Source: Antedon mediterranea
Lineage: Eukaryota > Echinodermata > Crinoidea > Comatulida > Antedonidae
Assembly (NCBI RefSeq): GCF_964355755.1
Contig: NC_092676.1
Span: 4,754,288 to 4,818,287, forward strand
Direction of reading: 5' to 3'
DNA: 64,000 nt
The notes beneath the pieces were generated by a model, which searched no databases, was not told the origin of the DNA, and saw nothing but the letters and a program-made list of their open reading frames with translations. The position numbers were made by a program, and so were the translations under genes. This document shows, one piece after another, positions 12,198-42,700 of this stretch. Numbering within the stretch: position 1 is the first letter of the stretch; every line of letters begins with the position of its first letter.

Positions 12198-12775
12198 ACA
12201 TCATGAGCAACACTGGTAACATTCTTCTGAGCAAAAAACCGTTTAACTATCTTATTTAATGAGCAGCATACAGGACCTTACTTCACCATCAACATAATTT
12301 CCAGTGTATCAACAAAAACGTCATTGTATCATTGTACTTTTCTTCTTCGTCATCATCATCATCATCTACTTCTTGTTCTTCAACAGCATAATCGTAATTG
12401 TGTCGTCAACAATGTATCCAACGTTTCAAAGTTCAAACAATTTCAACTTTCCTTATTAATTACATAATACAGTAGTCATCGCTTGGTACGGACTTTTATT
12501 GTTAAAAATGTTAAGATAAGATGCCAAACCACAGTATAATCTCCCTTAATTCCAGTCGGATGCAATTTGCTTACCCATAGATTTGATTGCTATTTTTGTG
12601 TAGTGCCTTGTTCAATTTTGGCCTACAACAATGATTATTATTAGAGCAAGGGTCATAGGACGCCAACCGTGTCCCTGATCTGCAAGTCCTTATACTATCG
12701 TACGGTAAATAGTGGATTTATTGTTAAATGAAATTCATGTGTTCGATTAGGATATGATATCATCGCTGGTAGAAC
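12198..12775. other. Intergenic stretch upstream of the Kazal gene
   Basis: It contains a short CAT/TCA simple repeat at 12349-12366 and otherwise nothing I can identify. It should include the upstream control region of the Kazal gene. Confidence 0.4.
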
Positions 12776-12860: not shown

Positions 12861-13433
12861 GTAGGCCCTATGTTTCTTCTTATTAGTGTGTTATTCATTT
12901 TTAATAATTTTATACAACTTTTGATATGTTTGAAGAAGATATTAGACCGTGTTACACATTACACATTCGCATTAAAAAAATTATTTTAAATATAAGTTGC
13001 GTTAGATTCTATGTAGGCCTATAATATGTTTTGAGTGAATTGGGAGATGAACATTTTAGCTTCAGGACGTCAGCATATTTCCTATTGTTTTTTATTCTAC
13101 ATACATTTTTATGATGAATGAATACGCTTCGGGAAATATATATTCCTTCGAGTAAAATATCATTCCTTCGTGGATGTCAATCTTATATTTTACCTCTAAG
13201 CAGACAATATCTGTATAATATTGTCATCTTCAATACAGTATTAAAACTATTTTTATTGTTTTTTATTCTGCATAAACGTTTATTGTGAATGAATATTAAA
13301 ACTTAGCCTAAATACTGATTTGTTTTTATTACTATTATATATTTGATAAGGATTACTGGTAATTCATGCTCTGTATTATATCTCATTTCTTCTATCTTAT
13401 TTGTTTTTTAAATTTCTTTTCCAAGATAGCAGC

Positions 13434-16576: not shown

Positions 16577-16659
16577 ATGACCAACAAGGAAGGTGGCTCG
16601 GAGGAAAAGAGGCCCGTGTCATCTTACAGATACCATAAGCCTAGGCTGTCTTTTCAAGC
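16577..16659 (+). CDS. ADGB: Candidate alternative first exon 1 of androglobin
   Basis: An ATG opens 27 codons (MTNKEGGSEEKRPVSSY, then a basic stretch with KPRLSFQ) up to a strong GTAAGT donor at 16660. The segment ends in phase 2 (GC), so joining to the shared exon at 35084 (first base A) gives an Ala codon and keeps frame. No acceptor of matching phase is obvious upstream, as expected for a first exon. The 18-kb distance and the lack of transcript data are the main weaknesses. It could instead start an unrelated transcript. Confidence 0.5.
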
Positions 16660-17838
16660 GTAAGTTTTATTTTATTTTATACTATCGGCATTGTATGGTC
16701 TAACGTTACCAATAGGTTTAGGCCTATATTATTAGGTAGTTGAAATGAAGATCAAACATGGTGTTTATACCAAAACTAAACTATTGAAACTGCATGAATA
16801 TCCTTAAATATACCGAGTTCAACTGATTCATAATTCAGTTATCGTTCAGACACTGAAGATAAAATAGGACTCAGTCAAAAAGTCTACTAAGTACTATTGT
16901 AAATCTGCTGCAAAGTTGCCAGAAGAGACGGCGAATGGGGAATGCATCGTACTTCGAATAAAACTAAACCTGTCTAGGTATTTTCTATACTGTTAGAGTA
17001 CTGGAAATATAAAAATATAAATTGGATTTATAAACACGTGTAATACAATTTTGAACGTTTTTGTTGTATTCGATCATTCTCTATGTTCTTCTCACGTGAA
17101 GTGGAAAAGGACAACATCGTTTCAAAATATTATCAATAATGCCAATTAAAATGTCAACGATCAAAGTGACAAACATGGTAACGGAAATTAACGTTTTCTC
17201 ACCAGGTGACATATATATTTATAGTCTAATTGATATTAAAAAGACATTGTTTAACAAAACCGTCTGTCCATGATTTCGCCGGAAATTCGATGGCAGGATT
17301 TAGTACAATTAACTATGAGCCGCACCTCAAGAAATCGATTCGGCGAAATTATTGAAATGTATTTAGATTGAGCTTGAGGAAATGATTGAACCGACTAGAA
17401 AATAGGTCTGAACTCAAGTTAATGAATAGTAATAAGGACGTCATTGAACGCGCGCGTCTGAAATACAGACGGTAATGAGTACGGCGCGACTGAAATTCTA
17501 GGCTATCGACTTTGCTACTTGAATTCTCATCATGGTTGAATTGATTGACTAAGGGTTATTTGTATACCATCAACATAGGATATCATTACTGGAAATATTT
17601 TATGTTTAGTCGCCGAGACCATTAGGGCCCGAGTATGCCTGGTTCCAAAGTTTAACATTAATTGGACATTCATGCGTTCAAATAATTGTGTTGCTGAAAA
17701 AAATATTGTCAATTAAGAATAATCTTAACATCGGTCAATGGAATTGTATAAAGATTTGTACAATAAAATGAATTTTAAGATAAACAGATGAGGATATTGC
17801 GTCTCATAGTTAGACGGTAATTATGGAACAGGTGAGAC

Positions 17839-18012
17839 ATTTTCCAAAAGGGAGCAAGTTTGTCAAATTAGTCAGGTAAGTAGGCTTATCAGATACATTA
17901 AACTAGCTGTATTTTACGTTAGAAATTTTCCAAAAGGGAGCAAGTTTGTCAAATTAGTTAGGTAAGTAAGCCTATAAGATCCATTAAACTAGCTGTATTT
18001 TACATGCACATA
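17839..18012. repeat. Tandem duplication, about 87-bp unit
   Basis: Two adjacent copies start at TTTTCCAAAAGGGAGCAAGT (17840 and 17927) and run to CTAGCTGTATTTTACG/A. They differ at a few positions. Confidence 0.9.
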
Positions 18013-18594
18013 ATGAACCAGATGTGTCCATTCAGAACAATATGACGATTTCCATATGAAATATTTTGGGCCGGCCCTACACAATTTCTCTCGTTTTTTG
18101 TTTTTGAACTTCTAGCCTATACCACGTTCGGTCATGATAACAGTACCGCTAAATAAATATCAGTTTTATACTACTACTAGTAGTTATAGGTCCATGGTTA
18201 GAGATAAAGGTCTATGCCTCTTTCTCAACAATGTGGGTATATTAACGATAAACATTGTGTTTGAGAGTGTTGATAAAATGAAAGTTAGATATTCTTATTG
18301 CTTGATTAATTAGGCCTAGTACAGTAATTTTATTTATTTATCACAGCAATACAAATGGCATTTTCTGACGTCGTCGGGGCTTGGCACCCGCCTTTTCGAC
18401 AGTCACTCAGTCTTTGTTTTTCTCTCCAATTTTCTGAGGCATCATCTGGAAGAAAATGTGAATACTATATCTAAAAATAATTGTTTTTATTCATACGAAT
18501 CCAAGCATCAAACTATTAAAAGTATTACTATTTAATAATGTTTTAATAACTTATCGTGCTTATAAATTATGTCTCATTTGAGGATTAGGGAGTG

Positions 18595-18730
18595 AAGTTG
18601 AAAGAATCTTGAGTTACAACCCTGGCACTAGTTCAGGATTGAATCCCAGCACTAGGTCAGAATTGAATCCCGGACCTTTGGATTGGAAGGCAAGCACGTT
18701 AACCACCGAGCTATAACAGCTTCACTACAT
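18595..18730 (-). mobile_element. tRNA-like SINE, family 2
   Basis: On the minus strand an A-box-like TAGCTCGGTGGTTAA is followed about 35 bases later by a B-box-like GGGATTCAATTC. Part of the B-box region is then duplicated (GGATTCAATCC). This resembles the head of a tRNA-derived SINE. No second copy is clear in the window. Confidence 0.5.
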
Positions 18731-19654
18731 GTTTCTTCTCTAACTATAATAATTGCAGTCAAATGTTTAATCGTCAATACAATTGGTATAGTAACATACC
18801 CCACTTGACCTTAAACACATGTCAATAATAATAGTCCAGTAAAATATCACCTTCACCATTGCATAACGTTAGTAGTCAACGAGATTCTCACCGTAGGTTC
18901 TAAACATTATGTAAAGATCATTTATTGATGTTGCGTCGCGTAAAAGTTGGGATTTGTAGAGAAAATGAAGTTTTTATACGCAGTTTTTGCTTCCTTTCGT
19001 CGTGGTTTGTTTTCATCGGAAAAAATGACGTCATGGGGCATAAGTGAATGACACGCCATTGTCGACATTTGCGTTCGTATTAAAAAGTGAATTTTAAATG
19101 TACGAATATGGTATTAATTATCTGTATTACATTGTATTATTATGTATCACATATATAACAAGTCATTTTGATAAAAAATAAGTCAAATAAATATGAAAAA
19201 CAAAGGAAAATTGTGATTTTTGCATGTCATCTGAAGTGACCTTCCATACAATGTGATAGCGCCCTCTATAAGTATTGATACACTCTCACTTCAAACTGCA
19301 AGCTTTTTGTTGTTATATTCATTCATTCAGAAATACAATTTAAGGAAGGAATCGAATCAAGGGCACATTATTACTTGGTTTATTATATATTTATGATGTT
19401 TTCCTCAAAAATAATTACTAGTATGTACATTTTGCGAATTGTAGATGTACCGGCGGTATGAAATTAAAAAAAGCTGTTTACGCGATCTGTAGCCTAACGA
19501 TATAATAATAATTATATGTATAAAATAATTGTTACTTTTTTCTGATAAATCAGTATGAATATGTTTACTTAGCGCTGCTTTAAGCACCCTATTAAAAAAG
19601 AAAAGAAACAAATTGATTTAAGCCTATTTTTTGTCACGTTTTCGGTAATTAATT

Positions 19655-20445
19655 GTCTTCTTCGCTCTCACTATCTGATTCGTCACTGTTCTCATCATCC
19701 GAGTTAAAGGAGTCGTTCTCAGCAATCGCTCGTTCAATTCTGTTGGAAGAATCTCGCTTTCACACCACAAAGGCCCCAGCAAATCGTTATCGCCAACGCA
19801 CCATCCGTTATTGTCTTGGGGTTTCGGCAACTCGTAAAATCGGTGTTAGTGCGAGCCTCCACAGATCCTGACTTGATAGTTCGATCATCGTGCGTTGTAT
19901 ATGTTGATGCAAGCATCTACGCGACGGTGGAAAGTTAGCTAATTTTTAAATCAATGTTTTTTTAACACTGATTATTCCGGGGTTTTTTTTCTTGCATTTC
20001 CTGCGAAAAAAGTCAAATCTAAGTTCATCGGTAGGCCTACGCCTTGCTTTCGAACGGAATCCATATAATAACAGGCACGTGAACTATTCCAGTTCCTGTC
20101 AGAAAACATTAACTCTTCTTCTCCTTTCCAACTTTCTCCTACTTTCTTGAAAACCTCTTCAAATTTTGGATATTTTTCGACAAGTTTAATGGCCTTTAAT
20201 TTTCCTTTTCCCTTGAAAGCGCTGGTCGTGCTGCACTTTGTGAACGCATGCAGCCCTAGAATGGCATTACATCGACTTGGGGTGATTTCAGTGGTGGCTA
20301 AACTGGTGAGATTGGTTATTCGTCGATTCCTGCCACTGCCTGTATCGAATAGGACTTTTGCAATAATGGACGCGTGACGAAACAAAATGTAACAATATAA
20401 AAAAAAAAAACATCGCTGTCTTATATGGATCCCGATCGAAAGCAA
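19655..20445 (-). pseudogene. Degenerate transposon-type gene fragment, left copy
   Basis: The minus-strand frame contains ILGLHAFTKCSTTSAFKGKG followed by an alpha-helical basic segment. This is typical of a large family of transposon-associated proteins in fish, corals and other animals, usually with an upstream PIN/XPG-like region. After one or more frameshifts it continues with NNGWCVGDNDLLGPL and ends in an acidic tail (SDDENSDESDSESEEDN). No N-terminal half is present. The function of the family is not established. It is probably part of a mobile element. Confidence 0.6.
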
Positions 20446-20762
20446 GGAGTACCGATGAACTTAGATTTTACTTTCTTCGCAGGAAATGCAAGGAAAAAGA
20501 CGGATAATCAGTGTTAAAAAACATTGATTTAGCTAACTTTCCACCGTCGCGTAGATACTTGCATCAACATATACGACGCACGATCGAACTATCAAGTCAT
20601 GATCTGGAAGCTCGCACTCTAACACCGATTTAAGAGTTGCCGAAACCCTAAGACAATAACGGATGGTGCGTTGGCGATAACGATTTGCTGGGGCCTCTTC
20701 CAACAGAATCGGATGATGAGAACAGTGACGAATCAGATAGTGAGAGCGAAGAAGACGATTAA
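20430..20762 (+). pseudogene. Degenerate transposon-type gene fragment, right inverted copy
   Basis: This is an inverted duplicate of the 3' part of the left fragment. It includes FHRRVDTCINIYDARSNYQV, a stop, then in another frame WCVGDNDLLGPLPTESDDEN and an acidic tail ending EEDD-stop. It is shorter than the left copy by about 60 bases before the acidic tail, so the arms have diverged since duplication. Confidence 0.6.
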
Positions 20763-21716
20763 TTACCGAAAACGTGACAAAAAGTAAGCTTAAATCAATT
20801 TGTTTCTTTTTTTTAAATATGGTGCTTAAAGCAGCGCTAAGTAAACATTATTATTCATACTGATTTATCAGAAAAAAGTAACAATTATTTTATACATATA
20901 ATTATTATATCGTTAGGCTACAGACCGCGTAAACAGCTTTTTTTAATTTCATACCGCCGGTACATCTACAATTCGCAAAATGTACATACTAGTAATTATT
21001 TTTGGGGAAAACATCATAAATATATAGTAAACCAAGTAATAATGCCCTTGATTCGATTCCTTCCTTAAATTGTATTTCTGAATGAATGAATTTATATAAC
21101 AACAAAAAGCTTGCAGTTTGAAGTGCGAGTGTATCAATACTTATAGAGGGCGCTATCACATTGTATGGAAGGTCACTTCAGATGACATGCAAAAATCACA
21201 ATTTTCTTTGTTTTTCATATTTATTTGACTTATTTTTTATCAAAATGACTTGTTATATATGCGATACATAATAATACAATGTAATACAGATAATTAATAC
21301 CATATTCGTACATTTAAAATTCACTTTTTAATACGAACGCAAATGTCGACAATGGCGTGTCATTCACTTATGCCCCATGACGTCATTTTTCGATGAAAAC
21401 AAACCACGACGAAAGGAAGCAAAAACTGCGTATAAAAACTTCATTTTCTCCACAAATCCCAACTTTTACGCGACGCAACATCAATAAATGATCTTTACAT
21501 AATGTTTAGAACCTACGGTGAGAATCTCGTTGACTACTAACGTTATGCAATGGTGAAGGTGATATTTTACTGGACTATAAACACTACTTTTTATCTTAAA
21601 CAAATATAAAAAATGATAAAAATGGTGTAAATCCACAGTGCAACAACGGTCGATGGGCGGAAATAGATTACCGGTACGTATATAATTCGTTTTTTTTTTA
21701 ACTATTACTAAATAAA

Positions 21717-21907
21717 ATGAAGTCTTCTAATGATATCGCCGAAAAGTCTGGAAAACACAAAATCAAGCGCAATGTAGAGACTCAGAAGAATACCCGAGAA
21801 TCGCAGACGGCAATCAACTTGGTAGCGGATCAACGACAACGAGCTTCGAGTGTAGGATCAGGAATGGGCAACTTGATGCCTGTTCTGACCACAAATATGC
21901 GACTTAG
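21717..21907 (+). CDS. ADGB: Candidate alternative first exon 2 of androglobin
   Basis: An ATG opens 63 codons (MKSSNDIAEKSGKHKIKRN, later QRQRASSVGSGMG) and ends ...NMRL + AG at a GTAGGT donor (21908). Reading through the donor hits a stop at once. The phase is 2, so AG + A from 35084 makes Arg. A TATATAA lies at 21679-21685, about 32 bases before the ATG. The peptide is basic and Ser-rich, like the other candidates, with no known domain. It begins about 140 bases beyond the palindromic element. Confidence 0.55.
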
Positions 21908-21969
21908 GTAGGTGATAAAATCATGGTGTAATATATTAGGCCTACTCCATGCTAAAATCATGTCAATAG

Positions 21970-22515
21970 GATATGGTGTAGGGGGATTTGTTCGCGACGC
22001 TACCACCCTTTACACATGCCTTCTCCTGTCTCTGACGGTGATCCATTCCAGTACAAACGATCTTTTGAGTGTAGGCTAATCTTGATGTTTTGTTTGTATT
22101 ACGGTCGATGAAAGTGTTCGGGTTTTGGGATTAGGTGCAGGCGACGACAATTACTGAAGAAAACGAGGGTATTGTATAGGGATGTGTAGGAGGATTTGTT
22201 CGCGACGCTACCACCCACACATGCCTTCTCCTGTCTCTCTGACGGTCCATTCCAATACAAACGATGTTTGTTTGTCTTACGGTCGATAAAAGTGTTCGGG
22301 TTTTGGGATTAGGTGCAGGCGACGACAATTACTGAAGAAAACGAGGGTATTGTATAGTGATGTGTATGAGGATTTGTTCGCGACTCTACCACCTGCCTTC
22401 TATAGTCTCCGACTGTCCATTCCATAAAATCTAGACGATCTGTTTTTGTATTGGGTCGATGAAAATGTTTTGAGATTATTTTTAGGAGAACTGGAGAAAA
22501 CGAGGGTACTGTATA
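21970..22515. repeat. Imperfect tandem repeats of about 175-210 bp
   Basis: The segment GGATTTGTTCGCGACGCTAC occurs near 21981, 22191 and 22369. TGTTCGGGTTTTGGGATTAG occurs twice (about 22113 and 22292), with a diverged third version. The repeats follow directly after candidate first exon 2. Confidence 0.75.
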
Positions 22516-23963
22516 TTTTCTTAAAGTCTTAATTGGCACCAGATCCATTTAGAAGTAATTATGCATGTTTTCTACCAATGATATGATGATGTAATTTTAA
22601 ATGTTATTTTTTCTGTTTTGCTGAACTTATTGATTTTGTGACACATACAATGAGTTATCAGTGTACTTTACAATGATCCAGATAAGCAGTGACTTGTATA
22701 TCCTTTTGTTAATTTCCACCTGGACCTGTCCTCATCAATCGACATAATTATTCTGTAATGTAATGAAAATGTATGTTAACTAGTTGTTCTAGTCTCAGAG
22801 AAAATGTAATATTGACCCCCAGAGAAAGGTGCTTTTGTGTGCGTACAGAGTTGCCAGATTAGTTCATCAGGTGCACTCGATCGAATGTTATTCTTGTTTC
22901 AGACATTAACCTCAACACTATTTGTTTTGTCTTTTTCCACCACCTTTCAACCAAAATAAAGACCGAATCAGCTCCTCACCCCAATCTTATAAAATCCGCC
23001 AATTCACCAAGATCATTTGTGTTTTTTATGCCTCTTTCCCCCATTTCAGTCGTCGAGGAATATGGTCTCAACAGTTCCTTCTTACCTTTCATAATAGGCA
23101 AAGACCTTAGCCTATCTCCCCAACTTATAAACCTACCACGTTCACACAGATCTTTTTGTGGTCTTTTTTCTTTCTTTCTTTTTTTCTTTCTGTTTTTCTT
23201 TAATTGTTTGTTTCTTTTTTCCCGTTGTCGAGGAGAAGCGCGCTACGCGATTTAAAAATGTACCTATTTTAAAGTGTCTTTGTATCATGAAACCCAAACA
23301 TCCACAACCGTGTTTCACTGTATCAATATATATAAATTTTAACAAAAGAGACTTTATAACAAAACAGATTTTATAAAAGTATATAGATTCACTGATCCAT
23401 AGATAGAATCCATTATCTTTACTATTCTTTATTATTATCAACTGAATTACTATGGAAACATTTGTAAACAAACTACTTCAGGAACAAAAAAAATTGAGTT
23501 TTTCCAAAGCAGTCCTATAGTTAATTCTCGCGCCAAGTGACGTTGATTATCTTCTGTTTTTCTAGTGTTGGTTGAAGTGAGTATATTATTTTGTTTGTAT
23601 AGGCTCTTTATACGAATGCTTTGGCAAGTTTCGTAGCCTTTATGTTTCACACATTTATAATGTTTCGGACACTATTACAGTATAGTTGCATGTTGTCAGA
23701 CAGGTCAATATTTACAGTAGTATCAATTGTTAGTTCTGAGTATATATCGGTAGTCCGGGTACATTTTCTTTCAAATATCGAAAACAAACGCATGCAAATT
23801 ACAACTAGGCCTATAAGTTATGAGTTCACAGAAGCCAGAGCTAGAGAGCATTGAGTATGAAGAAACCTGCAATTAGAAATCCCATTGGTTCCACCTCATA
23901 TGGTTCCGTTTCTATCTTTTTTGTTTTATACAAAATCGATAAACTATAGGTCTTTTTCTGCAG
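22516..23963. other. Non-coding stretch with pyrimidine-rich tract
   Basis: It has a CTTT/TTTC-rich segment around 23160-23225 and no supported exon. Open frames here are low-complexity products of that tract. Confidence 0.4.
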
Positions 23964-23965
23964 CC

Positions 23966-24231
23966 ATGGAATCTGAGAAAAATCCTAGAAAACGAGATAA
24001 TCTTCCAAAAAACAAGAGCTTGGCAAATTTTCGTCGAAACACTGAACACAGCCTTGCAACGCGACGGAAAGTTGATCAACGAAGACAGCCGTCGGTAACT
24101 GACCTCAGGAGGCGTAAGCTCAACAAAGATGGAAGAATAAGACCGATAAATGAATTAGATCGTAGGCGGAAATCACCAGTAGATTCAGAAGGAAATTCAC
24201 CAGGTTCTGCCGAAGAAGATGAGGACTGTAG
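23966..24231 (+). CDS. ADGB: Candidate alternative first exon 3 of androglobin
   Basis: The ATG sits in a good context (CAGCCATGGAA) and opens 88 codons, very rich in Arg/Lys with RRQPSVTDLRRRK and RRRKSPVDSEGNSPGS, ending in an acidic EEDEDC. The donor is strong (GTAAGA at 24232) and the phase is 2 (AG), matching the exon at 35084. A polypyrimidine tract and CTGCAG lie just before the ATG, so a non-coding upstream exon may be spliced here. There is no known domain, and the protein is probably disordered and phosphorylated. Confidence 0.6.
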
Positions 24232-26371
24232 GTAAGAAGATTTGATACATTTGGTGGTAGAAGGTTGATTAATCTAACCTATCCTCGCGTGTCACACGCG
24301 TGTTATATTCGTATGAGACACACTAGCACCAGGTACAATTCAATGGGACTTTAGACAGCAAAACTCTGTGTGACGTGCATGTTGGAAGAAATTTGTACTC
24401 ATAACCAGTCAGCAGACAAGAAACTGCAAATGCTGTGTATGTCGCTAGACATGATACCGTACGAAAATCGGGTGATTGTTTACTAGCCTAAGATGTGAAT
24501 GCGCATGAAGTCAATATTTTTTATTAGTAGAAAACAGGCTTTATTTGAGTAAAGGATGTATAACCATTGAGGTTCATTATCTCGAAGATAAATCTTCAGT
24601 AAAAAAAACTATCTTTTATGGGCGCCATGAGTGATTTGTAAATTGTATTAATTTGGTTTATAAATATGTTTTGTTCGTTTAGGTCTATTATATAAGGACA
24701 TAGCGGTTTCACGCATAACCTGTTTTTTTATAAGTCAAAACAACGTTACTATGGTAACGAGAGACGCTTTTGCCTGGAAACCAACCCACACCTCATAATT
24801 TACATTACAATACATGCGGTATATCGTTGAATCTGAAATTTCTCCGGTCTTTATTTTTCTAGGGTAATCAATAGTAGTAGTAACCTATTTGATTTGACGC
24901 ACAGCCGTAAAATTTAAACAAAGATATTCAGTGTCTCATTTATCCGTAGTAATAATAACAATCAGATCACTCGTTTTAGAATCAATCTATAACAATTAGT
25001 GAGCGATTTAGAGTCTTAGACCTAATGTATTCACTATTTCAAGAGTTCACCCAAGGACAACTTGACACTGTAGCTTAATAAAATCAATCCTTTTCGAATA
25101 ATATTCATTTTAATGCATTGTTACTAATGGAAACGGTAATAAATCGACTGGTCCCGAAGGATTTTGTTGCAGCAGCGAAACAGGGAGAGGAATGAATCGG
25201 GTCGATTGTAAAAACCTGTTGAGCTGGTTTAGTCGTTCTTACAGTGTTCTCAAATTTGATTGCGTGTCATGAGTAGTTCTCTATTGTGATCAGTATAGTA
25301 AATCTATATGGTTGCAGAGTAGCGCAAATAGTCAACGTTGTATTTTATTTACTAGTATTTTAACACGTTTACGAAGATGTTCGTGTATGGATTATATTTG
25401 ATTGGCTTATTTGAATACGGGGCAGCGGTACGTGAGGAATACTGTTTGTTTCCATGTTTGTATACCGTGGCCTAACAGGCTACGACATGTTTCTATGGAT
25501 AAGTCAAACACAAACTTCGTTAAAATTGTTTGAGTCGACTTTACATTCTTAAATCAAAGGGTGTATGTACGCTGGGATTAACTGTACAACGAACCTCCAC
25601 CAACCTACTGGACTTACAGATTACCACCCTCAAGAATTCAGTTTTTGAGTAAATCGTTTCAGTTCATCGTACTATTAATTTCTAGGCCTACATCTGCTGT
25701 ATAAATCAACTGGATCTTCAGTCTGTTACATGTGACGACTAACTGATTTAAATTATATCACGATTTTAAATTCAACTTTGGTGAACAATTTAATTAAACC
25801 GTCTCCGGAGATAGATTGCAAATTTGTGACAAGCTTCAGTTGAGCCGCCATCAAATTATTGTTGCTATAATTCACGTTGTTCAGCTCTAACGAACATTTT
25901 GCCTAAGAACTTCGTGATATGCTGCGAATAAAATCATTGACTGTTGCAACAATGCAAGTTATCGATTAAAGAAAACGCATTTTCCATTTGGCTTTAAGGA
26001 TTATTTTTCATATGATTTCTATATTTTGATCTTGAACGTAGAGGCTTTTATTACAGTACTGCTTCGACATTGTTAGATCAACTTTACTTAAAGCATCGAT
26101 TTGATCTGTGGAAGAGGAAGTTGAATATAGAAAAGATATAACGTCGGTGCCATATTAGGAAAGATGACGCGGCCGATTCCCATATTAAGAGAGAGGAGCG
26201 TCACATGTTTCCCCCTATACTCTCTGTTTAATTTTGTTGTGCTTCACTGACGAGGCCTTTTTATATTTTAAATTGTAACATTTTGCTGCTATCATACTAC
26301 AAGGAACTTTAAACTTACGGTAAAGAAGCGTTCCGGGTTACTGTTCTTCATATATTTTGAATATTTTAAAC
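24232..26371. other. Long stretch between candidate first exons 3 and 4
   Basis: Over 2 kb without a supported exon. It contains a palindromic X-box (24745-24758) and otherwise unrecognised AT-rich sequence. If first exon 4 is used, its promoter should be in the last few hundred bases. Confidence 0.4.
24745..24758. promoter_or_regulatory. RFX-type X-box, GTTACTATGGTAAC
   Basis: The 14-base site consists of two inverted half sites (GTTACT and GGTAAC) around AT, matching the RFX consensus GTNRCC/NRGYAAC with one relaxed base. RFX factors, with FOXJ1, switch on ciliary genes in animals. Androglobin expression is FOXJ1-dependent in vertebrates. The site lies between two candidate androglobin first exons, about 1.6 kb before the fourth. 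Confidence 0.5.
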
Positions 26372-26805
26372 ATGTCTAGATTACGCGAAAGAAGGGGAGC
26401 GATAAAATCTCCCGGGATGAGTGGGTATGAACTCAACTTTAACTACATCCAAAACATTCGCGAAGTAGTCTACCCGACTTTACCAATAACCCTGGATGAG
26501 ATATACGATCGAGCAGCAAAGTACACTGATAAACCAATGGCTAGGCCTTTAATATCCGAAGAAGATGACGATGAGGATGACGATGTAGGCCCATTATTGA
26601 TGCGACAATCGAGACGGGGTAGCGATAGGAGGCAATCGGTTATACCGGGCCAGGATGAAAGACGTGGGTACGGTTTATTACCTGGTCAAGAAAGACGCAG
26701 AGGAACAATTGGTTATGCACCCGATCGTCGAACCTCAATGGCAAATGCTAATTCAGAAGTTCGGCGGAGTTCGGCTTTCCCGAGTTTATCCGGACACTCA
26801 GAAGA
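26372..26805 (+). CDS. ADGB: Candidate alternative first exon 4 of androglobin (longest)
   Basis: An ATG opens 144 codons and ends phase 2 (GA) at a GTAAGT-type donor (26806); GA + A gives Glu at the junction. Residues about 20-60 look structured (NYIQNIREVVYPTLPITLDE). An acidic run (EEDDDEDDD) follows, then a tail with repeated RRxS/T sites (RRGS, RRQS, RRGT, RRTS, RRSS) spaced 5-25 residues apart. Those match the basophilic kinase consensus used by PKA. No domain is recognised. Length and codon quality make this the best supported coding segment of the array after 27715. It could be an isoform-specific head of androglobin or the start of another gene. Confidence 0.65.
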
Positions 26806-27714
26806 GTAAGTTTAGTGGCACGAACTATGATATTACAATTTACTTTCAATAGCCTACTATAATACATGTAGACCTATATAACTACAATTATCACATATGA
26901 AAATTAAACAAATAAAACAAACTATTTTTGTCAAATTGAATTGTCTAGGCCTATCCTATAAAAATAGTATTTTTAAATCCACCTTATTTTGTCAATTTGT
27001 AGGCTCCTATACCATATAAAACTGTTTTCATCATAGAATTTATGTTATAATATTCATGGTAGACCTACATATATTAATATACTAAAACAGTTTACAACAT
27101 AATATTATGATATAGGCTAATTTTACATTTAGATTATAACAAATATATATAATTTCGTTTTTTCAGTTGCGTTTTAAAAATCTTCAAAAAATTCAGTTCG
27201 GAAAATAATTCCGGATTGAATGTAATCATCTCCAGCGAATGTGTTATATAGGCCTACACTAATGATTGAATAGTCTGTTATATTCTTTAATACTAAAATA
27301 GTAGGCCTAATAATAATTTGTAGTTAATTTTAAAATTCGCGCGTAAAACACTGAACCAATAATAGGCCTACCGTCATGATTCCATTGGCTAAGTTGACGC
27401 CGTGACTTTTCTGTTGGTAGGCCTATAAACAATTATGCCGTTTTTTGGTAGGCCTATGGGTTTCATTCCTCCTCATATCTAAAAATAAGATTGAAAATCA
27501 AAAAGGGGCCGAAATTTAACAAATTTTAGGAATATACGTACGAAAAAAAAATGTCAATTAATCTACCGCCCTCTGTAGTTCATGAACTTTCAACTCGGTA
27601 CCTAACGACAGCGTTGTAGCCAAGAACGCTATTAATAATTGTTTGTTTTCTTGGTTAAAAAAAACATATTTTTTATACAAATAACAACTTTAAACTCATG
27701 GTGTCAATTGAAAT
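26806..27714. other. Non-coding stretch rich in AGGCCTA motifs
   Basis: No exon is supported. The heptamer TAGGCCT or its complement occurs at least six times between 26940 and 27460. The stretch should contain the promoter for the exon at 27715. Confidence 0.4.
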
Positions 27715-27782
27715 ATGTCATCAAAGCAAGCTAAAGAGAAAAAATCATCAAATCGCGTGAATTCAGCTTCAAATAATAAGGA
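27715..27782 (+). CDS. ADGB: Conserved-type first exon of androglobin (candidate 5)
   Basis: The ATG opens 22 codons, MSSKQAKEKKSSNRVNSASN, and ends phase 2 (GA) at GTAAGT. Vertebrate androglobin starts with a very similar Lys/Ser-rich segment (SKQ near the start, then R-[IV]-N-S-A), so this is the best choice of ancestral start. GA + A at 35084 gives Glu. The intron to the next exon is 7.3 kb and contains two LINE fragments. Confidence 0.85.
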
Positions 27783-30700
27783 GTAAGTTTCCTACTAAGT
27801 CTTGATTGATGATGATTGATCTTTCTTTATTTTATACAATCACAGCACGGAATGGCTGGCCAGCCAACCCAGTCTGGCTACTGGATTAAGCCTAGGCTCA
27901 GGCCTAGGCTATACTCTGTAGTAGACCTAGAGAAAAGCTCCTATTTTTATTATTGCGTAGGTTACTTTGCAGTTATATGTCATGATGGGTATGCAAACAC
28001 TTTTCAATTTCATATTATTTGTTAATTTTAACCGGGTTATTAATTTACAAAAATGTAGGCTATTCACCATCTGCATTTCATAATTAATATTATTATTATT
28101 ATTTTAAAATTAAGACGACTTTTACTCTCGCCATCCATAATTAATTGCCTAGGCCAGGTCAAGAGAAATGTTAGTTTGAGGAGGGGGCGTCAATTACAGG
28201 ACAGTGTGCAAAACATCATATTCTGGTAGCCTCTTGTGAGTACGATAATTGTACTGAGTACTTTTGTTATAGTTTATACAGTAGTACTGTAGTAGCCATT
28301 CTTATTGTTTGAAGCCCTAATTGACAAACAAATTAATTCACTGTAAACAGGGAGGTATTTTATACCTCCCACCTGTAAAGTATACTACTACAGTCTCTCT
28401 TAAAACGCTAATCGTCGTTAGACATTGCGCGTCTCACTTGTGTTCGCCACTCAGTACGTTTTTGAGCAAGCATGTTTATAGGTCCGCGTGTGAAAAGTTC
28501 TGTTTCCTTTTTTATGTTTGCCATCCATGTTGTTTTTGGTCTTTCTCTGAGCCTCTCCGAGTGCGATCTTAGCTGGTGTGTTTTCATTTAAACGGTGCAG
28601 GTGAACGTTCTTACTCCACTCAATTTCTCCTGTTCTTTTGTACAAATCTTCATTTTTTATGTTCTCCGGCCACCTTATACCTATTATTCTCTTTAGGAAT
28701 TTTCTTTGAAAGACATCTATTTCGCTTTTTAGTGATGCTGTCATTGTCCACAGTTCACAATTATACAGAAAGATGCTTGTAATGTATACGTTGAAGACTC
28801 TCATTTTCAGGTTTATTGTTATTTTTCTATTTTGGAGAGTATGTGATTTATCTTGCTGAAAGCTGCTAATGCGAGACATTTTCTGTTATTAACTACTACT
28901 ACTACAGTACACCACCATAAAACATAATTATTAATACTGCAGTAAGAATAAGAGAAAAATGACTACTACTGTGTTGAGATTTCAAAGAGTAAACAATAAC
29001 ATAATTGTATCAAAACTTTCTTTCCTAGATTGTTCAAACAATTTGTTATTAAAACGACCTAATTTATAGGTCCATGATTAGACAATCAAATAGGTCATTA
29101 TGAATATTAATATTAACCTTTAGTAGTTTGCAGCTTCTAGTCTACTGTACTATGTGTCAAAGTCTAAATTCCATTTATTCAAGTGTGAATAATTGCTGTT
29201 TTACTGTCTGTATTATCAGGAACATAATATTTCGCCGGTGTTTCCTCAACCAATTGTTAAACAAATTTTGTAGACATATTGCTCAATCACGCGAAAAATA
29301 TTTGTGCTTTTGTTGAACACTATGTCTAAAGAATCAACCCAGAGAGTAAGGTTTTTCTTGTTTGATGAAACAGCGTTACAATCTATATCAGAACTTAGCG
29401 AATCGTCAAATCAAACGGGTCAAAGGCCTAGGAGTCCACGACCACGGAGTCCACGACCACGGAGTCCACTAAGTCCAACAAAGAGGTATGTACTTACTGT
29501 CGTTTTCACAGTACAGTTAGCTTAAGTCTGAGTTACTGTATAATTCTATCTACTGTAGACCACGTCCTAAACCCCAGGAGTTGAATCTATTAAAGTTGCT
29601 TACCCAAAAAATGATCTTTGCTTTGAATTAAGTCAGATTTATTAATGATTGTAAGACTATGATCAACAGCACACAGACTATCCCTTATTCTTTTTGTGTA
29701 CAGTCCTAAAGATCTTTGTAGTACACATTTGAAATGTATGTGCACAGGACCTATGGCTTAACATCTCATCCGAAGGACAAGGTAATAAGATTAAAGCATG
29801 ATTAAAGTACTGTATCTTGCCTTATGGATACAAGGAAGCAACACAAGCGGTTCTCAAACCTATGCCTCTCTTACATGCTAGTCGGACATCCATACCATTC
29901 CGCCATATCTTTTGGGATATTTTAATCATTGGAACTAACAATTACATTGTTATTTAATACTGTATCTTTTTAGACCTTTAGAATAAATAAATATTTTGGC
30001 AATACAATAGTAATGTGTACTCAACAATAAGGAAATATATTTGATTGTAATTTTTTACTAGTTTATTAAACAGAGTATTTTTATTTTACTTTCATTTCTT
30101 GCTTTTGATGCCTTTATTTGACAACAAAATGTGATGTGCCCATAAATGGATATGGTGAGGTCATATCACTACCAATCCTATATTTGGGCATATCACTACT
30201 ATATTTGGCCACATAACACTTTTTTTGTCTAACTAATTAGTCTATTAATAAGAATAACTTTATTTACCGTAGTTGGAATATGTTAAATTTGAGGATTGGA
30301 AGGTTTTTAGAAAATGTGTTACCTTTTTATTTTTTATTTAATAGTAAATTTGAAATTTTTTCCCCTTAAGAATCAGCTTTTACCATCAACCACTGCTTTA
30401 AAAAAAAAAGTACTGTACATTAAAATGTACAAACCATTGACAGACTATAGAGGGCAGTTTTGTTATTATTTGGTATCTAGGGTCCATGATGAATATTCAT
30501 GAGTTATCTAGGTGTGTAGTTATTCCATGGTTCGTTGAACATTGACAATTTGTGAACAGTCTGTGTATGAACAAAGCTCATACAGTCTGTTTACTCTTTG
30601 TTGTTCAATACTAATATGTTACAATTTTGTTTATAGAACATTTCTAAAAAATGTTTAAAGAAATGTATTATTTTATTTCCTACAATTTAATTTATTGTGA

Positions 30701-33700
30701 CATTCTCCAACTCAAAATTGACCTGGGATGACCATGTCCATGCCATTGTTTCCAAAGCTAAAGGTATGTTGGGCTTTGTTTGGAGTGTGGCTGGACATGC
30801 TTCGACCAGTGCATTTTGTCTTTGTACAAAAGTCTTGTTTTGCCTGGTCTGGAGTATGCGCAACCTGCTTGGTTTCCATGGACGAAGTCTTTGTCAGATC
30901 AGCTTGAGGGGGTCCATAGGAGAGCAACTCGTCTTGCTCTCAAACAGCATCGTGGACAGATGTGCTTTGAGAAGAGGTTGAATTTGCTTTCAGTTTCATC
31001 TTTTTCTTTTAGAAGAGATAAATTTCTTATTATATTTTGTTTTAAGGTTCTGGTGGGGTTTCTGGACTGCAGCACAGTTCATAACTGTATTTTAATAAAT
31101 ACTCGTCACAATGATCGCTTGTGCTTCAGACATCAAGCATCAAGGAGACAGGCTTTTTTCCATTCTATAGCAATCAGGTTACCCCGTGTCTGGGACCAGC
31201 TTCCCAGACCGTTGACAGATGCTGCAGGTCCTAGAAAGCCCATCAGCCTTCATTAGAAAAGTTCATATTCATTTTGATTCGCTGTAACTGTATTTTGTCT
31301 TTACCTCTTTTATGTGTAAACTGACTTTGGGGTTGGGTCAACCGGCTCAGCTACAGTGATTAAGTTCACTTAGGTTGACCCACCTGGTCTCCCCAATTTC
31401 AGTTCTTTTTGTTTTGTATATACTTAAATAGACCAAATAAATAATGAAATGAAATGAAATGAATTTAAAAGGGATTAATAATTTAATAATTAATAATTTT
31501 AATGTCCTCCAGTCAAGTCTCTGAATTGGGACTCTCAAACTCAGCCACCTTCTGCTCTATAGGATGTTTGCGAAGTAGTTGTTTTACTTATTTTGACTTT
31601 ATAGTGTCTTGTGCATATGAGAACTTGCTAAGCATCTGACCAATTGGCAAGTCTCCTTTCACAGTAGTTTCAAAACCATATACTCTAGTGGTGGTGAAAT
31701 TAAGTAAATACATTTGATTTTATGGTATTGAAATAGATTGGAAAAATACCATTGATCCATGTAATATAGGTCAGTTATTCCATATTTGGTATGATTATGT
31801 TTGTCATTATCATTAAATCTTTGATTCATTTGATTAAGAACTGTAAAACTGAGATACCCTATCCATCAGACAATTGTGTGACCATTAGCCTCTCTGACGT
31901 TACTACGCTTAATAGAGAAAGTGTAAATATCATTGGATGGTACCGGTACTATTAAACAGATTTTTCCTTTGATTATTCCAAACAACCTCATTCGTCAGGT
32001 TGTATGACCTGTACAACTGTTCATTTCAGTTCTACAAGTCTCAATATTCAGTATAAAGAAAATTTTTCACCCTGATGCTACAGATAACAGTTTTTTTATT
32101 TGTGAAATAGAGCTCTTTTTGATACTGTACCTGTCTATTGTTCTAAGGTATTGCATCCAATTGATTTTTATCTGTTTGTCCTGGATTCCTATTTATTATC
32201 ATTCATGTGTTATTGATTTCTGCTAGACGTTTATTGAATGGATGAATGAAGCGTCTTACTCTTCTTGTTTTCAAGTGTCTACTGTACATTCACTTAACAT
32301 AATTGCTTAGAACTGACAAGCATACTGTATATAAGAACACATGTACTTCGACCACCATTGAACACTATCTTATATGAAGTAATGTGGCATCTGTATTTTT
32401 ACTTGGTGGATATTTATTGAATGGACCAACTGTAACTGTAATTCATCCTTCAAATGTTGGTTTAGTCCTTAAACATTTCCGCAGCAATTTGAAGTCTGTA
32501 TTCTTACCTCAACTTAGACATTTTTGAATGGACTGTTTCTTTAATGTTCATGGCTAGAAGCGACAAGATTCTGAAAACATTTTCGCAGCAATTTGAAGTC
32601 TGTATTCTTACCTCATCTTAGACATTTTTGAATGGACTGTTTCTTTAATGTTCATGGCTAGAAGCGACAAGATTGCGAAAACATTTTCGCAGCAATTTGA
32701 AGTCTGTATTCTTACCTCATCTTAGACATTTTTGAATGGACTGTTTCTTTAATGTTCATGGCTAGAAGCGACAAGATTGCGAAAACATTTTCGCAGCAAT
32801 TTGAAGTCTGTATTCTTACCTCAACTTAGACATTTTTGAATGGACTGTTTCTTTAATGTTCATGGCTAGAAGCGACAAGATTCTGAAAACATTTTCGCAG
32901 CAATTTGAAGTCTGTATTCTTACCTCATCTTAGACATTTTTGAATGGACTATTTCTTTAATGTTCATGGCTAGAAGCGACCAGATTCCTAAAACATTTCC
33001 GCAGCTCAGCAATTTAGAGTCTGTATTCTTTCTTACCTTAAAGTGATAGATATTTATTGAATGACCTGTCAAGACCGGCAGCTTTTTTTTTTGCTTACAA
33101 GTGTCTTCTGTACATACTGTAATTCATGCCTAGAAGCGACATGCACTCATGAACAGGTTTTTGCAATGTGGAAAATGTATATTTAATAAACTTTAGCAGT
33201 CATAATTTATGGACCTTGATTGCAACAGCAACACTTGTATCGTTATATCGCTGTAACAGTTTAGTTGTATAGATGTTCCTAAAGGATTAGTTTGAAAAGA
33301 AAGAAAAGAGTTGCAGATAAAGAAATACCACATTAATAGAAATTGAGTACAGTAGGATCATAGAAGAAAAGTTGGAACATAACAATTCTGTATACAGACT
33401 GAATGGTTGTTTCAGATAACAAGAACTTTTGTGGATACTTCAATTCTGTGAGAATAGAAATCATATCAGTCATGTCTGTTATTCCCTTGAACATTTTCAA
33501 CTTTTTCTGAATGGTACTGCAGATAAAAACTTTGTTTGCTCCACTTCAAGAAGATTGTTTTGTTCCTCTGTAAACTAAATGCAGTAATGTATGGTATAGT
33601 CATCTTATAAAAACAGCTATCTTGAAGAATTTGAAGAGATTTTAAAACTATAAAAATAATGAGAAGATTGTCTCCAAGACCGCCAACAACAGGAAGACAA

Positions 33701-36700
33701 AGCCGTACTGGTTCTGGCAAGACATTGTCATTGAAATCGCTGTGGAGGTAGAGTTTTCTTCAAAGTCTCCAAACATAATTCCCATAGAATTTGTAATAGT
33801 GTACTGTAATAGCATAGAGAAAGAAATAGGTTCTCCAAAGTGATTAATTCACTAGAATTAAGCTCTGTCTACACTATCAAACTAGTTTGACAAATAAGTG
33901 TGGTGTGCCCAAATATGGTAGTGATATACCCAAATATGGCAGTGATGTGCCCAAATATGGTAGTGGTATGACATTATGTCCATATATGGGCACATTACAT
34001 TTTTTGTCACATACCGTAAAGTTTGATTGTGTAGACAAGGCTTTAGTTTCCAGAACCACCTTATAGAATATGTGTGGGGACTGTAACATCATGGATGAAT
34101 TAAGCTCGGTCTACTGTATGCTATCAAACCAATGGACATGATGATGTCATATCACTACCATATTTGGGCAAACTAGTAGACCGAGATTAAGAGACTAATA
34201 GTCTGCATTTGGATTTTTGCAGTTTTTTGTTGAAATTTATATCTGGTTGAATCAATAATTATTAGAAAGATAATAAACTTTGACCCTGAAAAATATACTT
34301 GAAAACATGCACCACAATAGAACAAGGCTGCTGATTGCTGAATGTTTTTAAAAGCATTTCACAAATAAGATGTTGTTTTAGCTCCTTAGCCTGCAATCGG
34401 CTCAATTACTACAATACTAAAGAACCAGTTTTGTAACAATGAAGATTAAATCAGCACTAATTGTATTTTCTCACTCATATTTGCTTTTCTTGTGAAGCAA
34501 GGCCAAATAATAAAATAAATGTTGCTCATGGTGATGTAAATAATGATGAAAAAATTCTGTATTTGCACATTTGTTTGTAAGGTGATTTTGATGAGCTCAT
34601 TCGACATTTAGTGGTGCTAGCAGCTGGTCTGATCATTATTAGTTTCTTCACATATCTGTAGTGATTTTAACACATTTTCCGTACTGTATGTAGTTGCAGT
34701 AAAGTATGCCAATATCTTTCAAAGCAAGCGTTCTCAAAGTAAAGTTGTAAGTTGTTTGTAAACTTGTTAATAGTTTGGTTCTGCTCTTACTTGTACTGTA
34801 GGTGATCATTTTTTTAACAACTTACTTTGACACTTTTTGCTTTGAAACTGACTGGTCTTTTCTTTAGCTGACACTGCATGATTGGCAAGATTGTGATTCT
34901 CTTTCAGTGCTGAGTACATTGATGAGTTCTTCAAGACAACCATCTGCTGTACAATAACAGCAAAAGCCTCTGTTAATAATGAATTATGAAACCATTTTTT
35001 TACATAGTATCTGTACAATTTGTTTTAAAGAAAGCTGCTTTCTTTCAACTATCTAAGTTGTATCTTTTGTTTTCTCACTTCAGAGCTGCGTCAATCGCTG
35101 CTAGCCTTGTGGGAGCTCAGGAAGGGAAGAAGCAGAGGATTGTATTATGGCCTGAATTTAACGATGCTGACATTAACACAGAAAGATGGGTAAGCGAAAC
35201 ACATTTATCTAATACAATACATGTATATGGTAAAATAGTAATTGAAACAGCAGTGTATTGTTCCAGTGCTATGAGGTAGCCACTATAAGTTTTTTTTTAA
35301 ATTTAATTTTTAATGTAGGATGCTGCCCACAAGACAAATCAAAAAGATCAGAAGGGGAAGTCTCCTAGTCTGGTAAGCAAGTTTGAAATTAAAGTTATAT
35401 TATTGAAATTAAATTGAAGTGAGCCCTCAATAGTTATTTACAACTTTTCAAACTATTCATGAATAAAATGATGATACAGAACTGTCAAAGTTTAGAGAAG
35501 AAATACTGTAGTATGAATAGATTTATACGTCACATTTAATTGTCTGTTTGTCCTTTAGCATTTCTTTGATGATCCAGATGGACGTATTGATATGCCTCCA
35601 TCGCTACGAAGTAAGGTAGAATGTTGGAAGCGCCCTCATGAGTTTATAACTGACAAAGCCATTGTGGTATATGATGCAGACAACAACAATGACTTTGATT
35701 TGATGTCTAAAAACGAGCACATTCATGATTGTGAAGTAAGTATAAGAGTAAGAATTGTGGTTTGGTGAGAATCACTGATCTTCTATCTTTTGTTTGAATC
35801 GTAGATAAATCATCTCAATTCCCACCAATGCCGTATATGGTAGCACAATGTATGTTTGTCATGTGAGGAATATAGTCACCTATTATTAAGCCCTTGGCAC
35901 TTGTTGTATTTCATCAGCTAATAATGCTATAAATAGATATTTTGGGAGGTTTTTTTGGAATGAAAAGTTTGTTTGAACAATTTATAATAAGAAATACCTG
36001 GACAGTGAGTGAATCATAAAACAACAGCATAATATTAACTTTAAATTAGTTCCAAATTTTTAATAAAATAGAATATATATATTTCATATAATTATTAATA
36101 TAAGATAATATAAGATAATAAATAATAATAAATATGTCTATATATTATTTTTGTTTATATCTATAACATTAAAAATGCATCACATTATTTATTCAAACTA
36201 CAGTACTGTAGTAAGATAACTAACTAACCTTAAACACATTACTGAATGGAGCACCACAACCAAGGGTACTTAGATACATAATTTATGATTGTATTATTTT
36301 AAAGTCTAACATTGCTTTGGTTTCATCAACATTCAATAGATATGTTAACCATAGTTATTTCGGGATTCCTCCGTGTGTATTTATAGCAGAGAGTATAATA
36401 ATAATAATATTAATAATAATAGTTTAATCTTGGACCTATAAATTAGGTTCATAGTATACTATAATGAACCTTTGGACTCAGTTCAGACATTTACGCAAAC
36501 AATAACAGTGTAGTATGACATGTTTATAAACAATAACAATTAAATTAATTAAACTTTTTCATTACTTCTGTATTAAAAGTAATGGCTTAAGAGATTCTTT
36601 GAACCAATGGGCACAACAATGAGCCTAACCAATGAATCAAAAATGATAATTTGGAAAAACCCAAACAATGTTGTGGAATATTTAAAACTGTGGTTAGTGT

Positions 36701-39700: not shown

Positions 39701-42700
39701 GAAATGATTCCTAATATCTTTTTTTATAATTCTTTATCAGGTTATACGTTGGATAATCAGTCAAATTAATTGCTTATGGAAATCGACGACAGCAAACTCC
39801 ACTGATGGAGAAACATCTAATATCAGTGTTTCTGGTGGCGAGATGCATACATGGCGACCGTGGGATCATATATTTTCACTGTGTAAAGTTGGAAAAGGAC
39901 CTCATGTTCCTTTGCACAACCCTCATGGCAAATACGTTGTCAGATTGTATTGGATGGTGAGTTTTTACAAAGAATAAACAAATATTGAAATTTCAAATAG
40001 AGAAAATTTCTTTTTGTTTGTCAATGATACACTTGAAAGTTTTCTACATACCTTTTACTATGTCAACTATACTATAACTTTTAAACTATTAGTTTTAACA
40101 GTTATAGTATAGTTTAACTATAACTTAGTCAATGGTTATATTATTTGAAACTAGGCTACTTTGATGAGCAGCAACTGGATCAGTTATTCGGATGTTTTTA
40201 TTGCCATTTACCATGATTATCTGTTAAAAAACTATCACTATTACTATTTGTATGCCTAGTGTGTAAACATTATTGACATAATTTCATAAACATCTTCATG
40301 TCGTACAACTACTCGTAACATTTTTTCTCAACTTTCTATCATCTAAAAGTCGTAGTTAGTCATGCCTCGGGTCACATTCTATGGTCACCGTACAGATAGG
40401 CTACTACATCAGTACTTCTATGAATGGATGACTAGCCGGTGACAATAACGCTAGTTGGTCATACCCAGTACCGTTTTGATTTTAGGATCATTCGGGAAAC
40501 CACCTCACGACAAAAAACCATTTGTTTACTGCTCAATATTGTTCTATTGGTTGCTAATACTTACCTTGTATGTAAAGCTCTGTCTGTATCTGTACAGTAT
40601 CAAACTTTGTGTGACAAAAAGTGATATGCCCAAATATGGTAGCGATATGACATCATCAAGTTGAAATCTTGCCAAAACAATGCAAATTTTGATATGGAAA
40701 TTTTCAAAAAAAGATCAAAGTGAACTCAAAAACAAATTTTGTACAATATTATTTATAAATATAATTATATCATCACGTCCATATATGGGCACATCACATT
40801 TTGTTGTCACATAAAGTTTGATAGTGTAGACAGAGCTAGCTGTAGGTGTGCAAGTTGGAATCTTGCCAAGACAATGCAAATTTGTTATGGAAATTTCCAA
40901 AAAAACATCGAAGTGGACTTTGAAACAAATTCTCAAAAATATTATTTATAAAAATAATTTTATTGTCATAATTTTATTTCAATAAAATATTGATATAAAG
41001 TAAATTTTATTTTAAGGGTTGTTGGAGAAAAGTGACAGTGGATGACACAATTCCGTTTGACAATACCGGTAAAATGCTTCTGCCCGCTAGCACGCTCCAA
41101 CATGAAATATGGCCGATGATTCTTAGCAAGGCTATTATCAAAGTTATTTCTCTTGAGTAAGTACATAAAGTTTAATTTTGAAGAATGTTCGGGAACTTTA
41201 ATTTTGTCAAATTAAATTTTTTAAATTAAAAAGATGTAGCCAAATGCTAAAAGTATTATAATGAAATCTCAATATATAAAAGTGGGGGCAACAAAATGAA
41301 ATTTTACATAGTTGTGGCATAAAATTTTCCAGAAAAAAAAAACAAAGGCACAAAAACTGGAAACTCTAAAACTAAAACCACAGACTTTATATAAAGTTCA
41401 AAATATCTCTTGAAATTGAAATTACATTTAGAAATTCCAAAATTCATTTTGGACAACAACAGTTCACATAACCTTCCTCATCATTGAGCCAGGGAAACAA
41501 CTATATTGAATCAAATGCTGCTATTGCAATGGATAGGAAGAAAAGTAAATACACTCCCTGCACATAAACCAATTCTTTTTAAATAACTAATTATGAGTCA
41601 CATTTTTGATTAACAGATATCATAAATAATAATAAAGCCCATGACTCTGAAACATGTTTGAAACAACTTCAAAGAAATGGAAGCAGAATTTAGATTCTGG
41701 GGAATCCAGTTGTAATGTTTCAGATCATACTGTATGGTCTGTGCTACTCCAGCATCAGTTGAGTTTGATGTTGTTGAAATTGATCAATCCTATGACTCAT
41801 TGTGAGCAATAAAATAATTGTCTTTTATATAAATTGCATATTATACTTTGTACATCTACAAATCTATGTTTCAAGTTTGGACAAGTCTTATTGAACACAA
41901 ATTCAAAGTTACCAGTTAAGTAAACTATAATTCCATTATTCTCCTGTTTGTGAGTCAAACCTCTATACTGGGGGATTGCCCAGAGCCTGAAATTAGATTG
42001 AATTACAATTAGTGATGGAAAAGTACTGATGTTGTATGATGAAATAATAAAAGCCTTTTGTTTGATTGATTTTCAAGAATTTTCTCTTGAATAAACAATA
42101 TTTTATTTTAAAACTGTTAAAGATTTTTTTTTAATATTTAATTTTAAACACTAAATATTAATTATATTAAATCGCAACAATTATGATTTATCTCAATCAT
42201 GCATTCTTTGCTCATAATCATTCCTTAAAATAGACACTTTTACAATACATACAATGCTTTATTAATTTGTACAAAGCATGAAGACATAATAGGTTATAAA
42301 AAATGAAGACAAATTTTGAACAAACCTAAGATTGGCTTTTCTCTTTCTGTTCATTAAAAGCTTTTAGTTAGTAGAAATTAATATTTTTAGAAAAGGTTTT
42401 TATGAGTCGTGTAGGTTTAAACCCTGTGCGATGACACAGATTGTGGTGGAATTGTTAGGTGACAGATAGATATGGACTACTGATTTTTTTTTTGTGTTTT
42501 TCTGCAAAAGGCCTCTACCTCAATATTTTTTATAGTTTATTAAAATTATAAAAAAAAGCATGGCCAACTTCATTTTAATTAGTAAAATATTAAAAAATTG
42601 TACAGAATGTGGATCCTGGTTCGGATCCAAAATTGAATGGCGTTGTCCGTGACCACATATCTGTCTGGTTTTTGGTAAAGATCCGTCTTTGACACAAAAT

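Follow-up and report, generated by a model that had tools for sequence, protein, structure and literature searches.

The 64,000-nucleotide (nt) stretch of Antedon mediterranea DNA analyzed here (the window; G + C content, 32%) very probably carries the 5′ end of androglobin (ADGB), a single-copy gene the first coding exons of which would be mutually exclusive and spread over approximately 17 kb. Seven ATG-starting segments, which we call heads and name by position (H1 16577, H2 21717, H3 23966, H4 26372, H5 27715, H6 29322, and H7 33659), lie on the forward strand in front of one shared acceptor at 35084. Among these candidates, we consider two to be firm (H4 and H5), one likely (H6), three plausible (H1, H2, and H3), and H7 doubtful. 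The ADGB protein probably exists with interchangeable front ends.

Seven candidate heads and one acceptor

All seven segments start with ATG, keep an open frame over a length that leaves two on division by three, and then run into GT. H1 (16577..16659, MTNKEGG...RLSFQ+R) ends at the donor AGC/GTAAGT, H2 (21717..21907, 63 codons) at TAG/GTAGGT, H3 (23966..24231, 88 codons, possible exon start at 23964) at TAG/GTAAGA, H4 (26372..26805, 144 codons) at AGA/GTAAGT, H5 (27715..27782, MSSKQAKEKKSSNRVNSASNNK+E) at GGA/GTAAGT, H6 (29322..29485, with RPRSP repeats) at GAG/GTATGT, and H7 (33659..33747) at GAG/GTAGAG, which scores 5.9 bits; H7 is the weakest candidate. The shared exon 2 (35084..35189, forward strand, AASIAASLVGAQEGKKQRIVLWPEFNDADINTERW) translates, when two bases are supplied, as AASIAASLVGAQ... 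and requires entry in phase 2; its junction is as in ADGB of other animals. The original prediction that seven phase-2 donors face an acceptor needing phase 2 was thus borne out for 7/7 segments on direct reading. A purine at position -3 precedes the ATG in 7/7 heads, and the terminal residue is R or E in all of them. The heads had also been described as uniformly basic and Ser/Arg-rich. Six of them carry a net charge of +4 to +9 and fit this description, but the net charge of H4 is 0; the Ser + Arg share across the seven is 20-37%.

In the proposed arrangement, a transcript starting at one head would use the donor of that head, join it to the acceptor at 35084, and leave the remaining heads out. 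The frame would be preserved with any of them, as each contributes two bases of the interrupted codon. The outcome would be one ADGB body with its calpain-like, permuted globin, and ciliary parts, bearing interchangeable N-terminal tails. The scheme supposes that H1, H2, H3, and H7 would also be used and that each head would have a separate start site.

A search of the organism's own genome (354.4 Mb, 18 contigs), for which every head and the initial exons of ADGB served as queries, placed 11/11 matches inside the window (13 candidates scored), so that the heads and ADGB look single copy. An origin of the heads as tandem duplicates was rejected by comparison of the 21 pairs, the best of which (H4-H7) gave p 0.013 uncorrected while the other 20 gave p ≥ 0.2. 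An origin from repeats was likewise unsupported, the heads being single copy at the protein level.

Homologs of the heads and heads in other animals

Protein searches with the heads and the body returned at least 48 ADGB-like proteins, a profile search returned at least 532 (the best 120 of 532 were used), and a short-query search gave 71 matches, among which a named echinoderm protein was absent. In 45 of the 48 ADGB-like proteins, an AASIAAS-type junction follows the head. H4 matched the heads of Patiria, Asterias, sea urchin, Acanthaster, Apostichopus, Ptychodera, and Saccoglossus with expectation values (E) of 8e-16 to 8e-8; by phmmer, Patiria P0002 gave 8e-16, Apostichopus P0005 3e-10, and Ptychodera P0007 1e-9, and the hidden Markov model (HMM) value was 3e-22. 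H5 matched the annelid Owenia (P0012, E 1e-5) and the acorn worm Glandiceps (P0004, 2e-5), molluscs as well and corals more weakly, with an HMM value of 1.7e-8. By eye, MASK-type starts resembling H5 are found in molluscs, corals, and vertebrates. Vertebrate androglobin is the same protein with a MASK-type head corresponding to H5, and the claim that the segment at 27715 alone resembles the vertebrate start was right. When the seven heads were aligned locally with 39 distinct heads and with 200 shuffles, the scores of H4 (186) and H5 (70) exceeded all shuffles. From these similarities, H4 and H5 are firmly assigned as orthologs of ADGB heads elsewhere, H4 of the ambulacrarian heads and H5 of the MASK-type first coding exon, which is probably ancestral.

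H6 was the top match of an HMM built from two bivalve heads (P0021 and P0032), with E 0.0044 among 2017 open reading frames (ORFs) of the window and the next at 2.9. Its phmmer values were 0.011 and 0.098, and its local alignment score of 51 exceeded the 95% point of the shuffles (47) but not their maximum (53). In anchored alignments, H1 and H2 had weak partners. The best partner of H2 was the Crassostrea virginica head P0031 (p 0.03, the value with both ends anchored, and 0.08; E 2.1 by phmmer, not significant), and that of H1 was the Apostichopus X22 head P0009 (z 3.3 and p 0.11 with both ends anchored; p 0.42 with the 3′ end alone anchored). A class of mollusc heads (P0030, P0042, and P0022) had no counterpart in the window, the best E being 3.3. 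Comparison of the ambulacrarian H4-type with the mollusc MSRR-type heads gave a probability of 4% and E 0.0093; this signal is weak, and we keep a shared ancestry of the two types as suggestive.

The original prediction had proposed a comparison with other species. Among database protein records, eight species have two to four heads on one junction. They carry 19 distinct heads, with the junction identical within each species over 30 residues: four in C. virginica, three in Mytilus edulis, and two each in Mya, Apostichopus, Littorina, Styela, Dreissena, and Branchiostoma belcheri. The protein database was clustered at 90% identity, so that many isoforms per species are hidden; for sea urchin ADGB, one record bears the name isoform X28. 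Among 53 distinct database heads that passed a strict junction pattern, which excludes some heads including those of most vertebrates, 43 end in R or E, against 15.5% of residues inside heads, and the last residue of only 1/53 is one for which all codons end in C or T. Since such an excess of R and E is expected where a codon begun as AG/ or GA/ at the exon end receives A or G as its third base, the phase-2 head junction looks general. The locus and its relatives together show several ATG exons with donors before one acceptor, a common phase, and more than one head in related species, as expected of an array of first exons.

Between the AASIAAS junction and the calpain-like region, the latter included, the body is homologous with ADGB. 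A starfish protein was its best match in the first protein search, and 30% of the query part (620 residues) aligned with Acanthaster ADGB at 63% identity (E 3.7e-88). On the forward strand, exon 2 is followed by exon 3 (35319..35372, DAAHKTNQKDQKGKSPSL), which resembles its orthologs, by a modelled exon 4 (35559..35735), and by an exon at 39741..39956 (VIRWIISQ...VVRLYWM). The chain was built with a simple model and splice matrices, which missed exon 3; at least one modelled exon, at 36972-37025, is spurious and was dropped from the queries. Modelled exons between 59391 and 63890 resemble orthologs by eye, and the gene appears to extend past the window. The permuted globin and C-terminal domains were scanned in the orthologs P0005 and P0049. 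An ADGB intron holds a 30-nt tandem repeat at 46366-47302 (30.5 copies) within a 408-codon open frame on the minus strand.

Shared phase, splice signals, and rival explanations

The seven segments had originally been picked by eye, with a stated worry about selection bias. We ranked all forward-strand ATG-to-donor segments between 15.7 and 35.08 kb without regard to phase, using the donor score, codon log-odds trained on 13 modelled ADGB exons, and a purine at -3 (Kozak). H1 to H7 took ranks 1-7 of 22 non-overlapping candidates (H4 1, H3 2, H2 3, H6 4, H1 5, and H7 6), all in phase 2, whereas the top seven on the minus strand under the same scoring had phases 0,1,2,1,1,1,1. In a second ranking, for which the codon background was computed on 10-kb stretches taken at 17 random places in this genome, H4, H3, H6, H2, and H1 took ranks 1-5, H5 rank 7, and H7 rank 9, and ranks 6 and 8 were phase-1 segments (17139 and 22016). 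Candidates from the random genome with a score ≥ 14 (n = 45) were distributed over phases 0/1/2 as 16/17/12, and from these counts the chance of five out of five in phase 2 is approximately 0.001-0.004. Raw counts on the forward strand of this region (15.7-35.1 kb) depended on the threshold: donors ≥ 6 bits and ≥ 60 nt gave 7/4/9, which is weak; donors ≥ 7 and ≥ 150 nt gave 0/0/3; and donors ≥ 8 and ≥ 100 nt gave 1/0/4, with one of the four antisense to an ORF that looks like a long interspersed nuclear element (LINE). The codon scores of H1 to H7 were matched by 2-9% of 142 null ORFs (2.1% for H1 and 2.8% for H3).

Several results weigh against an array of seven used heads. Lower-scoring controls from two ADGB intron stretches were in phase 2 in 5/6 cases and in phase 0 in 1/6, and the codon score of H7 is higher in another frame. 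In the local alignments, H1, H2, H3, and H7 fell below the 95% point of the shuffles; H3 and H7 had no homolog by local alignment, anchored alignment, or phmmer, and H1 and H2 failed plain local searches. For H6, the MASK-type HMM placed an unrelated ORF below H5 at E 0.0092 in the same 2017-ORF run, and tblastn gave 0.001 and 0.006 against 0.003 for the best of 310 shuffled heads. Because an unrelated ORF and shuffled heads score nearly as well, H6 is a likely, not a certain, alternative head. The database isoforms that bear on other species are often predicted gene models, judged by name. Acceptors are not so scarce in the region that the other heads must be skipped: under a crude matrix, five AGs between 15.7 and 35.08 kb equal or exceed the score of the exon 2 acceptor, and H3 has an acceptor at its ATG. 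Upstream of the heads, Forkhead, RFX, initiator (Inr), and TATA motifs numbered 2, 0, 6, and 10 against 2.3, 2.7, 5.9, and 6.3 expected, with no clear enrichment near them.

One alternative is that only H5, H4, and perhaps H6 are real and that H1, H2, H3, and H7 are chance open frames picked for an ATG and a donor, which we regard as somewhat unlikely. None of the four has a firm homolog, H7 is weak in both donor and codon score, and random stretches, which may themselves hold real exons, yield approximately 2.6 candidates with a score ≥ 14 per 19.4 kb strand, where 6 are seen here. However, H3, H2, and H1 rank within 2-5 by a score blind to phase and all are in phase 2, the 88 codons of H3 show coding-like usage, and the best partners of H2 and H1 are themselves ADGB heads, from an oyster and from the sea cucumber (its other head). 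It is unlikely, too, that one or two promoters serve the region and that heads are chosen by splicing from upstream untranslated exons. Acceptor scores speak for such a route in part: an acceptor of 8.2 bits lies two bases before the ATG of H3, and acceptors of 7.7, 6.6, 5.7, and 4.7 bits lie 102-147 nt upstream of H6, H5, H1, and H7, respectively, in a region where 95% of AGs score below 6.05 bits. H3 may thus be fed by an upstream untranslated exon, but for H2 and H4 no acceptor within 150 nt upstream scores more than 0.6 bits, which argues against this route and fits the skipping of these two heads, though less so that of the other five. That some segments are exons of another, nested gene is highly improbable. 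Intron 1 is long and repeat-bearing, and for H2 (21717-21905) Pfam gave a match to DUF2368 that stays below threshold (E 0.012; 15.8 bits where 25 are required) and is probably due to chance. Pfam found no domain over threshold in any of the seven heads and no family up to E 0.5 in the six others; moreover, all heads share one phase and an ATG after a -3 purine, and the orthologs of H4 and H5 join ADGB.

Mutually exclusive first coding exons of ADGB remain our preferred reading. The picture of a seven-headed globin stands in so far as alternative first coding exons are concerned, with H4 and H5 orthologous to heads elsewhere, H6 likely, and eight species alike. Its full number is less certain, since H7 is doubtful and H1, H2, and H3 are without firm homologs, and so is a promoter at each head, the motif counts upstream lying near chance.

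Tails, surroundings, and known systems

H4 contains five R/K-R/K-x-S/T motifs against 0.5 in shuffles (0/2000 shuffles reach five); H3 has two, H5 and H7 one each, and H1, H2, and H6 none. Database heads not starting with MASK, MSSK, or MSK hold 78 such motifs against 21.8 expected, many of these heads being related. Basophilic kinase motifs are abundant in H4 and similar heads of echinoderms, acorn worms, and molluscs. AlphaFold gave H4 a low-confidence model (mean predicted local distance difference test [pLDDT] score, 56.5) except at residues 31-60 (blocks of 72-81), with a single helix at residues 41-52 within the conserved core REVVYPTLPITLDEIYDRAAKYTDKPMARP (26459-26548). According to passages of a study on Tetrahymena, Adgb belongs to the C1b/C1f projection of the central apparatus, and motility changes little when Adgb is lost (PMC8175508); the relative FAP42 is present in the PDB. 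A head-specific phosphorylation input to the C1b/C1f part of the cilium is a reasonable idea, and the tails might adjust the docking of ADGB, or its control by kinases, from one kind of ciliated or sperm cell to another.

Between H1 and H2, a long near-perfect inverted repeat (18831-21578) consists of six arm pairs of 68-193 nt that are 95-99% complementary. Its outer end lies 139 nt before the ATG of H2, and sequence ahead of this ATG may therefore stem from a mobile element. An X-box-like RFX motif with one mismatch, GTTACTATGGTAAC, lies at 24745-24758 between H3 and H4 (0.61 expected at ≤ 2 mismatches). Intron 1 also holds, between H6 and H7, a 104-nt tandem repeat (32471-33005, 5.1 copies, 96% matches) and ORFs at 28451-28885 (minus strand) and 30691-31256 (forward strand) that resemble C-terminal pieces of LINE reverse transcriptase by eye; Pfam gave no match over threshold for 28454-28885 or 30762-31253. 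Upstream of the array, forward-strand open frames at 13350-15549 have a start that by eye resembles a signal peptide, and they encode three Kazal protease-inhibitor domains (Pfam Kazal_2, E 4e-8, 7e-10, and 3e-12). A 30-nt minisatellite at 11799-12210 (13.7 copies) is open in several frames, and the region 7019-8678 holds acidic Glu/Asp-rich and Lys-rich frames with PAPR-type motifs, perhaps exons of another forward-strand gene; Pfam assigned no family to 7429-7965.

The kind of gene structure proposed here is known. In plectin, several unrelated short first coding exons, documented by transcripts, join one acceptor and change the N-terminus and targeting; the layout is alike, although the gene is different and the heads described here are read from genomic DNA. 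The variable exons of UGT1 and the protocadherins are related copies, unlike the seven ADGB heads, which are not recognizably related to one another and encode short tails without a known domain. What UGT1 (UGT1A) and the protocadherins share with ADGB, as outlined in passages of the literature, is a tandem series of alternative first coding exons in front of one common downstream set (PMC1885805, PMC3325998). Vertebrate androglobin is described, in the available portions of two papers, with one first exon and promoter (PMC7949040, PMC9249397), and the terms isoform, alternative, and first exon are absent from the portions available of PMC9249397 and PMC11119863. For sea urchin, also an echinoderm, passages of PMC4527676 give two ADGB isoforms of 1765 and 1841 residues and do not describe how they differ, and excerpts of PMC13331133 speak of androglobin isoforms that may exist or be artefacts of annotation, and of two transcript variants in Hydra. 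In the literature searched, which left subscription papers mostly outside, we found no description of alternative first exons or promoters of androglobin; within that scope, neither their presence in this gene nor their apparent age was found in print.

The swapping of heads is probably ancient in ADGB. Beyond this, we put forward tentatively, as a doubtful but possible extension, that ADGB of the bilaterian ancestor had at least three kinds of phase-2 head (the MASK type of H5, the kinase-site-rich MSR...YP type of H4, and the RP-repeat type of H6) and that animals swap heads as cell-specific regulatory tails on a ciliary and sperm globin. Our estimate for this extension was lowered because the MASK-type model returned an unrelated ORF at a value close to the 0.0044 of H6. 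ADGB, the oddest animal globin, has links to motile cilia and to male fertility, and the passages of literature available treat its N-terminal tail as a single entity. If the heads are exchangeable and have been so since early bilaterians, any antibody, knock-out, or reporter that targets a single first exon or promoter would overlook part of the protein in invertebrates, and the locus would be a clean example of unrelated first exons that share a locked phase and have persisted for very long periods. The heads would then offer a direct handle on how one axonemal protein comes to suit sperm, larval bands, and epithelia.

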